DNA from: Trichosporon coremiiforme
Taxonomy: Eukaryota; Basidiomycota; Tremellomycetes; Trichosporonales; Trichosporonaceae
Assembly: GCA_039545355.1 (NCBI GenBank)
Contig: BCJJ01000012.1
Coordinates: 124,001-188,000 of the forward strand
DNA length: 64,000 nucleotides
Direction of reading: 5' to 3'
Shown: positions 19,998 to 28,406 of the stretch, piece after piece
Numbering within the stretch: the stretch's first letter is position 1
How the letters are laid out: each line of letters starts with the position of its first letter
Made by a program: the position numbers and the translations under genes
The notes under the pieces: generated by a model
The model's database searches: none
What the model was told of the DNA's origin: nothing
What the model saw: the letters and a program-made list of their open reading frames with translations, nothing else

Positions 19998-20713
19998 GGT
20001 GGGAAGTCTCTGAGGACGTTTTGTCCTGTGAGGTCCACAATAAGAGGCTATGGGTGATGTTGCGATGTTGAGGCGTGTCAGAAGAGACAATTGGTGCCGT
20101 GTGGTGGTGAGTCAATGGTGGGAGAGTGGGACTTCGAAACGAGGCGTCGAGTATCGCGTGAGCAATGGATGAGAGAGTGACGAGAGTGTAGCTGAGAGCG
20201 ATGTCGACGACCTCAAGAGGAGTGGTGGGTGCGAAGGACTCCGGAGTCTGATGGATATGAGCAAAATCAATGTCTGGAGGAGACGCGTCTTGGTCAGGTA
20301 ATGAAGGCTGGCCGTGTTGGGTGCGAGTGGCCCATGGCGCACAAGCCAGCCAGAATGGATGGACGCCCAGGCAGGGGTGTTGACTGCCATTCCACGTGCA
20401 CGACCCTGGAAATCCGCTCCAACAAAACAGTCGCGTCGCGCGGCATCAATTTTCCTCTCGACATGACGTCGTCTGCCGTAGTGTCTCACTGCCCGACCGG
20501 GATGTTGCTGCAGTGGGGCAAGCTCGCTAGTCTATTGTATGCAGCGGAACTCCCGCGCACAGCGGAAGCGTGGACTGGTATGCACTATGCTGTAGGTAAT
20601 ACATCTGTCGGGTCCATGCGAAACAACAAAATCCCAAACTGATCTGACGGCTCTATTGTGTGGAGGGCTGAGGGCGGCTGAGGGGTAGAATGAAGGGGCT
20701 GCTGCGCGCCTTC
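19998..20713. other. Upstream region of the GATA gene and 3' flank of UTP11
   Basis: About 700 bp with no credible coding signal on either strand. It probably contains the GATA gene promoter (near 20000-20300) and the UTP11 terminator region. Confidence 0.35.
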
Positions 20714-21806
20714 TCACTTCCTACGCTCCAGCTTCCACTTCCACTGCTTCCCTTGCCACTTTTTGCGCTCGCCGTTGCGGTCCTCAGGGACGTTCTTGTC
20801 CTCAACGAAACCCGCATCACGGATACGCCTCGCCGCACCCTTGCCCATGAGCCCCTTCTGCGTCTCCAGCCGGCTCTCCGCCTCGCGCAGCAGACGAACG
20901 CGGCCAAGAAGAGCAGACAACCGAGCCAGAAGCTCCATGCGGTATTCCTGCTGTCAGCTCACGGCCCATGACGATGAACTCACCCGTGCCTCGGTGCCAT
21001 CATCGGCCTCGTCCTCAGACTCGGATTCCGGGGTAGGCTCCTTCGCCTTCCGTCGTCGCTTCGGCTTCTCGGGCTCCGCCCATCCGAGGTCCACCGCCTC
21101 CTCGTCTTCCTCGTATTTCTCGACTTCTCCAGCCTTCTGTCCAAACGAGTCGACTGCCGTCAGCTTCAGCCCTGATATGATATCGACTCACAGTCCTCCT
21201 TCGAGTCGACGAAGACGACGTGGCCCTCCGAAGGCACCTGCTTCGCCTTTCCCTTCCTACTGCTTGTCGTCGGTCGGATGATCACGCCCATGTCGGCCAG
21301 CTTCTCCACCTCGGCGAGCTCAGAAGCAGCATCCCACTCGGAGCTGCTGCTAGCAGGGGCGGTAATCTGCAGCTCGGCGCGGAGTTTAGCAATTTTCTAA
21401 TGTTAGCTAACGCTAGCAATCCGAAGCTCACCTTCTCATCCTGTGCAATCTGCACCTTGACGTATCCGACGTCCTGGCTCTTCAGCAGCCGCACCATGTC
21501 CGTCGACAAAGACTCGTTGCCACGATCGGCGATCGCCACACCACCCTTCGTCTGGCCCTTGACCATGCCCCAGTAGAATTCATCCTTGTTGCGGAAGGCG
21601 GCTTTCTCTCGGAGCTTCTTAATCCTGTCCTTCTTCGACTTGTAGTCGCGAGCTCGGTGGACGTAGTCCTTGTGCTTCTCGAGGAGACCGAGCCTCTGGC
21701 GGTTGAGCGGCTGGGCTCGCTCGCGGTGGTTACGCCTCGACATAACATCTGCGGTTAGTTTAGGAGGGCAATCAAGCAACTCACTTTTGCGTGCTGCGTT
21801 GACCAT
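20714..21806 (-). CDS. UTP11: U3 snoRNA-associated protein Utp11
   Basis: Component of the small-subunit processome needed for 18S rRNA maturation in the nucleolus. Five exons: 21806-21785, 21748-21432, 21396-21192, 21153-20984 and 20950-20714, giving 316 residues. The N-terminus ([11 protein letters not shown], then [23 protein letters not shown] and [12 protein letters not shown]) and [11 protein letters not shown] are hallmark Utp11 blocks. The C-terminus ends in a basic, Trp/Lys-rich tail ([15 protein letters not shown]). The four introns are only 33-38 nt long. An in-frame Met at 21815 could add three residues; 21806 was chosen because the family starts close to the basic block. The gene diverges from the ABC-COX10 fusion gene. 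Confidence 0.92.
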
Positions 21807-22144
21807 GATGTGCAATTGAGACGGGAGTCTACGCCTATGCTTGGCAAGGAGTCGAAGGAGCGGTATGCAGCTGAGTGGCGAGGAAGGTGGATGGAGGTGG
21901 ACGTGATGAAATCCGACTTTTGGTTATCAGGGAATGACGTGTGGTGCGGGAGCAATATGGCAGACGGTACTCCCCAGACATGGCTGGGTGGGATGAGGTT
22001 GCCCCGACGGAGACGAGCATGAGAGGAGGTCCTTCGCAGATCGAACTCCTGACTTTTCCCTATCGTTGCCCTCCCCTCGAGCTCAACGCACTCTTCAACA
22101 GCACCCGAAGGGCTCTGTGGAGCGCGTCCTCGACTTTTTCCATC
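21807..22144. promoter_or_regulatory. Divergent promoter UTP11 / ABC-COX10
   Basis: A 338-bp intergenic region between two divergent starts. The frame of the fusion gene stays open upstream to a Met at 21941, but that stretch lacks the character of a presequence, so it is treated as leader. No specific element is recognised. Confidence 0.35.
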
Positions 22145-25100
22145 ATGGCCATGGCCCAACGCGGCGCCTGCGCCATGGCGCTCGCCTTCCGCGCTGCCAA
22201 CCCAGGCCGTGTCGGTCTCGGTTCCGCTTCGGCTACAATGGCACATCGTCCCGGCTTCATGACATTACGAACACTATCGACTACCCCCTTTGCTCGGCCC
22301 AACGTTCCTCTGTCAAGGGTATCTGTGTTTGCGCTCGGAAAACGTTTTGAATCTACGACTTCTTCGGACTCTGAAAAGCGAAAGAACGCCAACGACTCGA
22401 AGGCAGAGGTTGACGTCCTCCTTGCGTCCACGGTGACTCCCCCACCCGTCAAGGTTGATGCCAAGCCCGACACTGCTTCCCTCTGGAAGCTCCTGTCTCT
22501 CGCGAAGCCTCAGAAGAAGCTTCTCACGCTTGGTGTCTCTGCGCTCATCGTCTCCACTGGTGTCTCGCTTTCCGTTCCCTACATCATCGGTAAAATCATC
22601 GACTACTTCGCTCCCGGCTCCAAGGAGACCCTTCTGTTCGGACTTCCGCTGGATCAGGCCGCCATCGCCCTCGCAGGCTTTTTGATCATCGGAGCGGTCG
22701 CCAACTCGATTCGGTCCATCTCGCTACGACTCGCCGGACAGCGCACTGTCGCTCAGATCCGTAACAAAACCTACAAGCAGTACCTCGCTCTGCCTCCGTC
22801 GCACATTGAGACCGCCGGTGTCGGAGATGCCCTGTCGCGTATCGGACAAGACTCGAGCATCGTCGGCCAGTCCCTTTCCGAAAATCTTGGAGAGGGTCTT
22901 AAGGCTGTCATGGGTGCCGCCGTTGGTGTCGGTGCCATGTACATGATCTCGCCGAAACTGTGCGCCGTCATGCTTATCCTGTTCCCGCCTATCTCGATCG
23001 GATCTTACTACTATGGCCGCTACATCCGTAAACTGTCCCTCAAGACCCAGGAGGCGCTCGGTAACATGTCCAAGCTCGCCGAGGAGCGTCTTTCCGCCCA
23101 CCGCACCGTCACTGCCAGCAACACCCAGCCCTCCGAGCGTGCTCTGTTCGCCGGAAAGGTCGCCAGCGTCTTTAACCTGCAGAAGAAGGAGACGTACGCC
23201 AACGGTATTTTCCAGGGAGGCAACGAGGTCGCCGGCGACCTCGCGATGATCGGTCTCCTTATCTACGGTGGAATGCTCGTCCAGCGCGGCGAGGTCACCG
23301 TCGGAGACATGACCACGTCGCTCATTTACGTCAACTGGATCGAGTGGAGTTTGAACAGTGAGTTTTTAGTCTTAATCCAGTGAGACATTGGCTAACGTCA
23401 GCCCTCGCCACATTCTTTACTGGTCTTATGCGTGGTGTTGGTGCCTCGCAGCGCATCATTTCCTTGCACAGCCTGCCTTCCCCCGTGCCCCTGAGCGTTG
23501 GTTCGCCCGTCGAGGAGAAGGACGGCGGTGCTATCGAGCTCCGCGATGTCGGATTTGCGTACCCCTCGCGTCCCGACGTCAAGGTTCTCGACGGCGTCAA
23601 CCTCCGCATCGACCAGGGTGAGCAGGTTGCGCTTGTTGGTGGCTCCGGCTCGGGCAAGTCTTCGATCCAGCTCCTGCTTCTGCGCTTCTACGATCCCACC
23701 AGCGGTCAGATCAAGTTCGGCAGCAAGGACATCCGCGACTTTGAGCCTGAGTCGTGGCGTGGCCGAATCGGTTACGTTCCCCAGGACCCCATCCTCTTCG
23801 CGGGCACGATCAAGGACAACATCAAGTACGGTCACCCGAAGGCCACCGACGAGGACATCATCAAGGCCGCCGGTATCGCCCACTGCGACTTCATTGAGCG
23901 CCTTCCCGAGGGCTACGACACCGTCATCACGAAGGCGTCGCTTTCCGGCGGTCAGCGCCAGCGTATCGCTATCGCCCGTGCTCTTGTCGGCAACCCCTCC
24001 GTTCTGCTCATGGACGAGGCCACCTCGGCCCTCGACTCTGAGTCTGAGCGCGCCGTCAATGCTGCTCTTGACGCTCTGTTCAATGACACCGACATTACTG
24101 TCATTCTGATTGCCCACCGTCTCAGCTCTATCGCCCAGGCCGATCGTGTGGTCTACCTCGAGAGCGGCCACATCATGGAGGACGGCTCGTACGACGACCT
24201 CATCACCCGTCCCCAGGGCCGCTTCCGCAAGATGGTCCAGGGTCAGATGGCTAAGATTGCGGACCCGATCGAGGAGAAGGAGGGTGCGGCTCACGAGCCT
24301 GAGGAGACCCCTAAGCCGAAGAGCGACGGCGAGACCCCCGGCATCACCGTCCGCACTGCCCCCACTTCTCCCTTCGCTGGCCAGAAGCGTTTCGCACACA
24401 CCTCGGCCACTCGTCCCGAAGCTGAGCAGGAGCCTGAGATCCCCCAGCCCCCCAAGTTTCGCACTGTCTATGGCGCTGCCAACGCGCCCGCCTCGCCTCT
24501 CCCCGAGGTCGACCTCCCCATTCCCTCTGCACCCGCCGCCCCTCTTTCGTCCTACAAGCCCCTCCCCGAGCAGACGCCCAAGCGCCTGATCAACCTTTAC
24601 TCGCAGCTGTCGAAGCGCAACCTCAGCATCCTCATGACGCTGACCGCTACGACTGGCTTCGCCCTTTCCCCCCTCCCCCTCAGCATGCCCGTCCTCCTCG
24701 CCCTCACCGCCGGCACGTTTCTGACCTCTGCCGCCGCCAACACATTCAACCAGGTGCTTGAGGGTCCGATCGACGCGCAGACGCCGCGTACCCGCGTTCG
24801 TCCCCTCGTCTCGAGGCGTGTGACTCCCTTCCACGCTACTGCGTTCGGCACGACCTGCATGACTCTCGGTGGTGCCATTCTGTGGTACGGCTGCAACCCG
24901 ACGACTGCTCTGCTCGGTATCGGTAACCTCATTCTTTACTCGGCCGTCTACACGCCCATGAAGCGCTACAGCGTCTGGAACACGTGGGTCGGTGCCGTCG
25001 TCGGTGCGATCACTCCCCTCATGGGCTGGACCGCGACCGGCGGCTCGCTTTGGCCTACGGCTGAGCAGCCTCTGCTGCTTCACTGGCCCTTCTCGAACCT

Positions 25101-25671
25101 GCCCGACCTCCCGAACCCGCTGGCTGCCTGGACGCTCGCGCTTCTGCTCTTCTCGTGGCAGTTCCCGCACTTCAACGCGCTCTCGTATATGATTCGCCCC
25201 TTCTACGCGCTCAGCGGCTACCCGATGCTTTCCGTGCTGAGCCCGAGGCTGAACGCGCTTGTCTCTCTGCGTCACGCTGTGCTGCTTGCGCCGATCTGCG
25301 CCGTGCTTGCTCCCCTCTCGGGCGCCGTCGACTGGAGCTTCGCGCTGACCTCGGCCGTCCCGAATGCCATGTTCATCGCGAGCGCGTACCGCTTCTACAA
25401 GAACATCAACGAGGTGACTGCCAAGAAGTGCTTCTTCGTGTCGCTGTGGTACCTGCCCGTCGTGCTGGGTCTGATGCTGCTGCACAAGAACCTGCGGAAG
25501 TGGTGGACGCAAGAGTCGGACTGGGAGAATTCGGATGCTGGCAAGAACTACATCCACGAGCGCGAACACGCCCGCGGAAGAATACTGTCCGAGCACCACC
25601 TGCCCGAGCACACGCATCGCGTGGACGTTACGAAGCAGCCGCCAGCTGCCCCTACGCCATCAGCGTCGTAG
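22145..25671 (+). CDS. Fusion: mitochondrial ABCB10/Mdl1-like half transporter + COX10 heme O synthase
   Basis: Exons 22145-23357 and 23402-25671 (44-nt intron) encode 1,160 residues without a stop. Residues 1-80 form a basic, Ser/Thr/Arg-rich mitochondrial presequence. Residues about 115-440 are an ABC membrane domain of the ABCB10/Mdl1 type (ISPKLCAVMLILFPP, YGRYIRKLSLKTQ, LAEERLSAHRTV). The nucleotide-binding domain has Walker A GGSGSGKS (484-491), signature LSGGQ (585-589), Walker B VLLMDE (605-610) and H-loop IAHRLSS. A Pro/Glu-rich linker (about 690-797) contains QKRFAHTSA, which looks like a presequence cleavage region. Residues about 798-1110 are protoheme IX farnesyltransferase, with N851, the NQ..E.P.D pattern, RTRVRPL, YTPMKRYSVWNTWVGA and SWQFPHFNAL. 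COX10 makes heme O for cytochrome oxidase and ABCB10 proteins are tied to heme metabolism, so the fusion makes biological sense. Both halves keep their catalytic motifs. Confidence 0.9.
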
Positions 25672-28406
25672 ACCCGAACCTCTCACTCTCCTCTCACAAC
25701 ACAGAAACCATAATAAAACCACGTCTTTGCAAGCCCCCGACGCGCCCGCCGACGGGTCACACACTAAGGACCAAGGGATCATAGACATATCTGTACCATT
25801 ATCATTAAAGGCATTTGACTCCACTTCTGCGACTCGACTGCAGCTGCAAGCAACGTGCTGGTCCATGCTGATGAGACCAGCACGTTCGGCGTTGTTGTCG
25901 TCATCCTCACAATGTTGCGGGTCGAAATCAACCCGGAGGCAGTACGGATGGAGCCCGGAGGTAAGCTAGTGACACTAGCATGTTTATCGGATGCAACCCG
26001 CAACCGCGGCTGCACTCTGTCCCCGCAAGACGAGAGATGGGCCAAGACGCCGATGCCGTATCAACCTGAGAGGTGAGAGTGGGTTGGGTTTGTTCCGGGC
26101 GCCACATGAGATGGATGTCGTCAGCACCCCACCGCTGGTCGATGTGAGAGGCGTGGGTGCCATGTGCATTTCCACTGTTGCATCTGAGTGCGCCGAGTGT
26201 ACAAGAGCACGCAAACAAATGATCGAAACTCTGTTATGCGCGATCGTCCCGCAGCTCCGCCGTCATATCGAACGCCACAGCTTCCTGGGATCAAGCATCC
26301 GAAGCACTGGCGTCGTTCGTCGTGACTGCGGGAACCTGACTCCTTCCTTCAGTCCCCTCATGAACGCCACGCTGCGGCGCTCATCCCCGCGACATCGGCA
26401 GTGCCGGGTCGTCGGACAGGCTGCGCGTCGCACGTCAAGACTTGTGAGTCTTCTTGGGAACGCGCGAGATGTAAGGGGAGTAAAGTTCTAAAGGGCGACA
26501 GTACGAATGAAGGGTTCCTGTCGAAGGGAACGCAGGGAACGGCGAACCGAAGCCTAGGGAGGGAACCCGAAGTCGAAGGGAAGACCGCAGTGAGGTAAGC
26601 ATCCCGGACGACGGCAGTGGGGTGCAGAGCGGGCAGGAGAGAGAGCGGGCAGGTTCGCTGGGAGCGGTGGGTTCTACGGGAAGTGCGGCGTGGCGCACAT
26701 GTGGGGAGTGCGTGCTCCATGTCTTACTGATAACCACGTCGTTGAACTCTGACTGAATTGGAGTTCTGAGCGATCTCTGGGTGCTCTTGGCTCTGACCGA
26801 TCTGTTATGCCCCGCAAAGCTCTCTGGACTGCGTTGCGTAGCAGCAACGCATTGCAGACGTCCGTCTCGACCTCTTCTCGGGTACTGCCCACTTGACACT
26901 CTGCTCGGCCAGTAGCTGTGCCTGCTGCCTCTCCGTCGCCATATTTGGGCGACTGGCAGAGGGGGAAGCACTACCGCCCTCATGGGGACGCGAGCGTGAC
27001 ATGACCTCTTACGAAAGGCGGTTAAGCTTGCCCTCCACGAGCAACAGCAGTGCCTGTGGTTAACCTGACGATTAACACCGGATATGTTGCCCGTGTAGGG
27101 CTGGCTCATGGTTCGTCTCGTAGCTCTGGCACCGCTTAAGGTTTGGTTTGGCCCTGCGTTTGCATCACTCTTCATTAGGCGGTCCACTTCTGGGCTCCTG
27201 CGGCAGTTCCCAGATCTGACCCGATCTGTCCTCGATCTGGGCACGAGCGGAGTTGTGGCGTGCGGCGTGCGGAGTGAGCTCGAGTAAAGAGCAGAGGGAT
27301 AGGTAGAGGAGCCGATCAGACTTGCGGACCAAGGGTTCGGACAACGGGCACTGGGAGCCAGCTCCGAGACTGAATTCAGTGCAGCCCTGAGGAGGGCCAT
27401 CCAGATGTCCCGGTGCCGTATCTTCCTCCCTTTTGCTGACGCGTACGCGTGCTCCGATGGTGTTTCCGCTTCTCTTACCTTATCCCTCCGTGACGCCTCG
27501 CAGCTCTGCATCTCCTCAAACACATGCGGCCGGGTGACTCCCCAGCCCGCCTTACGCACCTCGGAATCGAAGGCACCAGGTTCATTGCAAGGAGTCTTTG
27601 GAAGCCCACGCTCGAATTGAGTCGGTGCTTTTGGTTCAGACCAGTATTGAGCGGGACGAGTCAAGCTTTCGCTGGATCCTGGCACTCCTGAACCTCTTAC
27701 GTCGCCGGGGTCGTCGGGGGGAGGGTCGGGGGGTGGTTGGACCCAGCCGTGCCGTTTGATTCCCGTCTCAAGAGCCACGGCACGAACCACGCTGGCCGCT
27801 TGTGGGCGCTCGCAGCAGAGACGCAGAGAGGGAGAACTGGGACGACTGGGACGACTCTGGGACAGCGCAGATAGAGTTTGCCGATCCTTGGTTCCAAACC
27901 TGGCTTGTCCTGGTTATAACGTCAAGCCGTGCCGCGTGCTGGCTCGTTTGGTTTGGCTCGGTAGACGGCCCCAAAACGCGCGAGACGGCGGACATTGCGA
28001 CGCTGCGACCTAAGTGGAGATGGAGGGGCCAAGCCTGACAAGTCTTACGTTGCTTGAATGAGCAGACCAGGAGACACGGCAACAGGCACATTGTTCCTTC
28101 CTGGTGTTGCTTATCGAGACACACCCGTCACGCTCCTTTATAAGACTTGTGCCGTGGCCATGTCGTTTCCCACCCCCTTGGTTCCCGTCTGCTCGTGCTC
28201 ACTCGCAACCGTGACCGATTGAGCCCAAACTCAGCCTAAACTGACGCAACCCGAAACGCCTGGCCTCCCGACATCACAGCCGGCACTCCCACCTCTCTCT
28301 GATTCTCTCACCGCGACATCTCTTCGTCATTCACTCCCTCTCTTTACGCCGGCATCGTCGCGAGCAGTCGGCCGCTTCGACCGCCTCAACGCGCCCCATC
28401 CCACAC
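25672..28406. other. Gene-poor 2.7-kb stretch with one long non-coding-like frame
   Basis: No recognisable gene. On the minus strand 27790-26435 stays open for 451 codons, but the translation is Ser/Arg/Pro-rich, has no known motif, uses codons unlike the neighbouring genes (many AGA, GTA, CTA and ACA) and shows no domain. A TATA-like TTTATAAGA lies near 28139, some 265 bp before the next possible start. The rest is featureless to me. Confidence 0.35.

Follow-up and report, generated by a model that had tools for sequence, protein, structure and literature searches.

The window, a stretch of 64,000 nucleotides of Trichosporon coremiiforme (C12:124001-188000 in an assembly of 42.0 Mb and 134 contigs), contains one reading frame that holds two complete mitochondrial-type proteins, an ABC half transporter and, downstream of it, a heme O synthase, COX10 (Table 1). 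The extent of the gene, the length of its product and its one short intron had been given correctly in the initial annotation, and an intron-consensus scan across the whole gene returned this intron alone, with zero candidates in the linker between the two parts. Pfam models for UbiA (172.7 bits), ABC_membrane (166.5 bits) and ABC_tran (108.6 bits) all matched the window protein above their cut-offs. The ABC part comprises one ABC transmembrane domain and one NBD; its Walker A, signature, Walker B and H-loop, as well as NQ..E.P.D and SWQFPHFNAL in the COX10 part, were found intact as previously claimed, and the Q-loop is present too. The stretch NQVLEGPIDAQTPRTRVRPL of the COX10 part, at 24748-24807, is the Asp-rich motif of the prenyltransferase. 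The COX10 part of the window protein was scored with Pfam UbiA only, and the heme o synthase model TIGR01473 was run on the fused relative P0006, which passes it (227.8 bits, cut-off 210.3).

Among 60 of the 580 PDB matches to P0006, the best half transporter was human ABCB10 with 405 bits, followed by ABCB9 (291.5) and ABCB8 (287); full-length ABCB transporters outscored ABCB10 in this set (481 bits) because two stretches add up. The ABC part is thus an ABCB10/Mdl1-type half transporter, for which a location in the mitochondrial inner membrane is predicted, given a presequence-like N-terminus. To our knowledge, the known ABCB10/Mdl1 half transporters carry no COX10 part. A UTP11 gene, divergent from the fusion gene, lies on the minus strand at about 21282-21806 (PF03998, 154.9 bits, a partial match with more exons likely).

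Table 1. Features of the fused gene, in positions of the window.
Feature	Position	Strand	Details
Fused gene, MDL1/ABCB10-type half transporter - COX10, 1,160 aa	22145..25671	+	ATG at 22145, stop ending at 25671
Presequence-like N-terminal region, aa 1-75	22145..22369	+	From sequence; weakly constrained, dN/dS about 1.0; putative mitochondrial targeting
44-nt intron, GTGAGT...CTAAC...CAG	23358..23401	+	Consensus scan; same site and 44 nt in the C6 copy
ABC NBD motifs	23638..24126	+	Walker A 23638-23664; Q-loop 23779-23790; signature 23941-23955; Walker B 24004-24021; H-loop 24112-24126
Linker, aa 706-797	24304..24579	+	Met-free, without intron signals
Conserved linker motif SPFAGQKRFAHTSATRPE	24367..24420	+	Core QKRFAHTSA at 24382-24408; presumably a remnant of the COX10 presequence end / processing site
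COX10 / heme O synthase part	24580..25671	+	UbiA domain aa 818-1086; NQ..E.P.D..RVRPL 24748-24807; SWQFPHFNAL 25153-25182

Copies and relatives of the fused gene

A colinear second copy of the locus on contig C6 is also fused and shares 89.6% DNA identity with the window over 5.7 kb. The aligned segments, window positions 20194-25848 and 26490-27461 against C6:187500-195000, are 89.6% and 79.1% identical, respectively, and the two fusion proteins are 96.8% identical. With a dS of about 0.38 between the copies, the genome looks like that of a two-subgenome hybrid fungus. The C6 copy has a 44-nt intron at the position matching the window intron; an early stop shortens its C-terminal tail by 46 residues, apparently past the last membrane span. 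In a simple Nei-Gojobori estimate made with our own script, dN/dS between the copies was 0.022 for the ABC part, 0.122 for the linker, 0.015 for COX10 and about 1.0 for the N-terminal residues 1-75, so that, by this sequence comparison, both the ABC and the COX10 parts are under strong purifying selection.

The whole-genome UbiA search gave eight matches, which include two COX10 loci, both fused, and another UbiA pair, on C6/C24, which is presumably COQ2. Because this search of the assembly found no stand-alone COX10, a second gene of the kind that the initial annotation had proposed to look for, heme O synthase has no visible source there other than the fusion. An Mdl1 paralog that is not fused and has 52% identity was located at C35:18833-20416; the genome search found it in one copy only, with no partner seen in the other subgenome.

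The search for fused proteins, which covered proteins of at least about 640 aa, returned 68 matches, 52 of them with both UbiA and ABC_tran. Twenty-eight are full length, with the frame open throughout in 28/28, and 24 of these are named: Kwoniella (13), Cutaneotrichosporon (2), Vanrija (2), Cryptotrichosporon (1), Cryptococcus wingfieldii, C. depauperatus, Cryptococcus sp. DSM 104549, Naematelia, Kockovaella and one member of the Tremellales without a genus name. According to a taxonomy check of one species per named genus, the named fused genera belong to the Trichosporonales or Tremellales; a search for the fusion in related Trichosporonales genomes had been suggested in the initial annotation. 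Several database records label the fused protein just 'protoheme IX farnesyltransferase' or 'ATP-binding cassette permease mdl1'.

Among the best 120 of 1317 matches to COX10, in a search limited to proteins of up to about 760 aa, COX10 without an ABC part was found in Naganishia (Filobasidiales), Phaffia (Cystofilobasidiales) and Agaricomycetes, and also in P0069 of Cryptococcus bacillisporus, a record with 66 member sequences. Non-fused proteins among the best 120 of 7997 matches to the ABC part were mainly basidiomycete Mdl1/ABCB10 proteins. Given these search ranges and listings, the presence of the fusion is firmer than its absence. Four single records join COX10 to something else, namely a proteasome subunit (P0055), an EF-hand protein (P0060), CLP1 (P0061) and a 900-aa Mycena model (P0053), and are perhaps annotation chimeras. 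Where the intron lies, P0001 (with NSEFDEIFNKQWLTSALATFF) and P0003 have additional residues, which suggests a short stop-free intron that gene callers may have read through.

One window alone might hide a missed stop, and some of the relatives are automatic gene models, so that an artefact of the assembly or of gene modelling has to be weighed. Two diverged subgenome copies are both fused, the intron is at the same place in each, 28 relatives are fused at full length, and the window and several relatives were read directly from DNA. The fused C6 copy and the fused relatives rule out an assembly error or missed stop, an artefact of any kind has a negligible probability, and the fusion is genuine, as the initial annotation had it. 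P0002 was dropped as a candidate spliced transcript over both halves: P0005, whose longest listed contig is 32,647 bases, has the identical uninterrupted junction, and P0002 is no cDNA proof.

Trees of the two parts and the apparent Cryptococcus split

For the trees we used 20 of the 28 full-length fused proteins together with both copies of our own assembly, giving 22 fused rows. In the ABC tree, these rows, P0167 and a partial Tremella record formed one clade (100/100), and the non-fused Mdl1 paralogs of the same genera formed a separate clade (100/99). This separation marks the fused transporter as a duplicate, alongside which an Mdl1 paralog was retained; the point and timing of the Mdl1 duplication are unsure, with support of 90/73 and a long stem. 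Cryptococcus neoformans has two Mdl1-type (MPE) transporters, which PMC2848647 ascribes to a lineage-specific duplication. The COX10 tree likewise united the 22 fused rows, P0069 and a Dioszegia model in one clade (98/99); P0128 and P0063 entered this tree without the trimming motif, and Venturia and Clydaea are long branches in it. The Tremella record (P0168, marked partial) and the Dioszegia model (P0073, which begins within the linker) fall in the fused clade and may be either fused or split.

P0167, a 725-aa ABC protein without COX10, and P0069, a 485-aa COX10 without an ABC part, nest inside fused Cryptococcus in their respective trees, and AU tests rejected a single clade of fused rows without them with p-values of 0.021 and 0.027, which are moderate values for groups named after the trees had been seen and rest on 16 fused rows (15 of the 28 and the window). 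The C-terminus of P0167 is an acidic tail that resembles the first part of the linker. P0069 begins with a stretch resembling the N-terminus of P0167, followed by the linker motif; the two N-termini (MLSRQGLGLAANFI in P0167, MISRKGLGFAANIL in P0069) are alike at 9 of 14 positions, with a score of 49 against a maximum of 48 in 1000 shuffles. Both are gene models, P0069 from C. bacillisporus (gattii complex) and P0167 from Cryptococcus, possibly from different species, and their positions in the trees would place both within the neoformans/gattii group.

Because the separate proteins nest in the fused clade and each retains a piece of the linker, the fusion was apparently split again there. The simplest history would be a duplication of the fused gene followed by the loss of opposite halves. 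Alternative splicing of a common first exon is unlikely because the two N-termini are alike and not identical. The fission shows tolerance of separate halves rather than cutting of the fused form.

The linker and the probable fate of the fused protein

The motif [RK]R.{1,2}H[TSN] occurs in the linker of 67 of 68 fused reading frames, the remaining one having RRMAHV, and in a mean of 0.5 and a maximum of 3 of 68 when the linkers are shuffled. Among 54 ABC proteins lacking COX10, 5 also carry the simple motif in their tail. In an alignment of 25 of the 28 full-length fused proteins, the invariant positions within columns 699-797 (P0006 numbering) are Q744, R746, H749, T770, A774 and P793, and A700, P705, R754, V771, A775, P778, A795 and P796 are at least 90% conserved. 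The 31-aa motif region has a mean of 4.2 K/R and 0.75 D/E (4 and 2 in the window), with no D/E at all in 31 of 67, and the linker ahead of it is variable in length and acidic, with means of 2.3 K/R and 6.2 D/E. A structure prediction, whose mean pLDDT of 51.8 and pTM of 0.36 do not allow contacts to be assessed, showed the linker as mostly coil at low confidence.

The N-termini of stand-alone COX10 proteins, 11 of the 13 tried, align to the linker motif with R-x-x-[SH]-[ST] and then FF, the first part reading RSLSTAV, RSHSTLV or RLLSTAA. A pattern drawn after this alignment was seen, R..[HSA][ST]-5/16-F[FL], matches 42 of 68 fused linkers (shuffle maximum 4) and 30 of the 49 stand-alone N-termini that passed a length and Met rule among P0093-P0166 (shuffle maximum 5); it is absent from the window linker, where the FF part is lost. 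From its sequence, the motif region looks like the retained end of COX10's own presequence. PMC8835746 names Arg at -2 or -3 as a feature of sites cut by the mitochondrial processing peptidase (MPP) and also gives an octapeptide rule. The octapeptide (MIP) pattern was found in just 6 of 68 linkers, the window not among these.

We consider it rather probable that the locus encodes a composite mitochondrial precursor whose linker is cut, probably by MPP. An Mdl1/ABCB10-type gene would have been joined upstream of COX10 in an ancestor of Tremellales and Trichosporonales, with the end of the original COX10 presequence left in place at the junction. The N-terminal presequence would drive import, and both membrane parts would enter the inner membrane, with the linker on the matrix side. 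There a cut near Q(R/K)RxxHT, most likely by MPP, would set the two products free, so that a single mRNA would yield equal amounts of a half transporter and of an ordinary heme O synthase. The likeness of the linker motif to a COX10 presequence end and the Cryptococcus split fit two mature proteins, and separate mature proteins may explain both at least as well as one polypeptide. Two points count against cutting: what is left of the presequence is a short, Pro/Ser/Ala-rich piece, a weak targeting signal, and the linker motif could be kept for a reason other than cutting.

The main rival is an uncut bifunctional protein in which the linker motif serves as a structural or regulatory element. 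The retention of the fusion across two orders and the strong selection on both parts speak for this reading, which we nevertheless regard as rather unlikely in view of the alignment of the motif with the presequence region of stand-alone COX10 and of the separate Cryptococcus halves nested in the fused clade. Alternatively, the joined frame could be incidental, with the two products made from transcripts of their own or from internal starts of translation. Cryptococcus does have annotated separate halves, and 46 of the 68 linkers contain at least one Met; the other 22, those of the window and the C6 copy included, are Met-free, the window linker is without an intron signal, the frame is open in all full-length relatives, the linker is constrained (dN/dS 0.12), and translation begun at the window's last ABC Met would produce an acidic N-terminus. 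Separate products from separate starts are accordingly an improbable explanation.

Known composite precursors and a possible role in heme supply

Etp1 of Schizosaccharomyces pombe consists of Cox15 and a ferredoxin and is thus a composite precursor with an enzyme of the heme A pathway; it differs from the precursor proposed here in that Cox15 is paired with ferredoxin and COX10 with an ABC transporter. PMC8847149 counts Etp1 as a composite precursor and describes internal MPP cutting of Arg5,6 as well as predicted sites in Etp1 and Rsm22-Cox11. In Arg5,6 of S. cerevisiae, one precursor yields two functional enzymes through an internal MPP cut (PMC8847149 and PMC8835746). These are enzymes of arginine synthesis whose cleavage is demonstrated, whereas cleavage of ABC-COX10 is inferred. 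Rsm22-Cox11 of S. pombe, cleaved after import according to PMC12375894, resembles ABC-COX10 in that one gene encodes two mitochondrial proteins, of which one is an assembly factor for cytochrome oxidase. The difference is that the S. pombe protein joins a mitoribosome factor of the matrix, Rsm22, to a copper factor, Cox11, whereas both parts of ABC-COX10 are multi-span membrane proteins and their cleavage is inferred.

We found no description of an ABC-COX10 fusion in open-licence literature, in agreement with the initial annotation, which knew of none; terms for the fusion had no match in the available portions of PMC5666163, PMC2848647, PMC12136443, PMC12474206, PMC11302930 and PMC7049704. 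If the precursor is cut, the pair of an ABC transporter and a heme A pathway enzyme joins the short list of composite mitochondrial precursors.

The fusion had also been read as a sign that the transporter and the first step of heme A synthesis work together. The basis of that reading stands, the fusion being real, intact and present in two orders; a single working polypeptide is less certain, given the presequence-like linker motif and the Cryptococcus split. ABCB10 is a partner of ferrochelatase, and the route of heme b to COX10 is unknown (PMC7140478), which makes any transporter that is coupled to COX10 a natural candidate for it. A functional link between transporter and COX10 is plausible, and the conserved pairing suggests a tie between the fusion's transporter and the heme supply of COX10. 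Tentatively, and with more doubt than confidence, we propose that the transporter, of ABCB10 type and different from the non-fused Mdl1 paralog that the same genomes keep, serves heme O synthase exclusively, by supplying it with heme or by controlling its access. The two parts could do so as one uncut membrane machine or as a pair that a cut precursor yields in equal amounts. Kept across two fungal orders, the fusion singles out one transporter as the partner, which is testable, and the natural fission in one lineage offers a built-in comparison.
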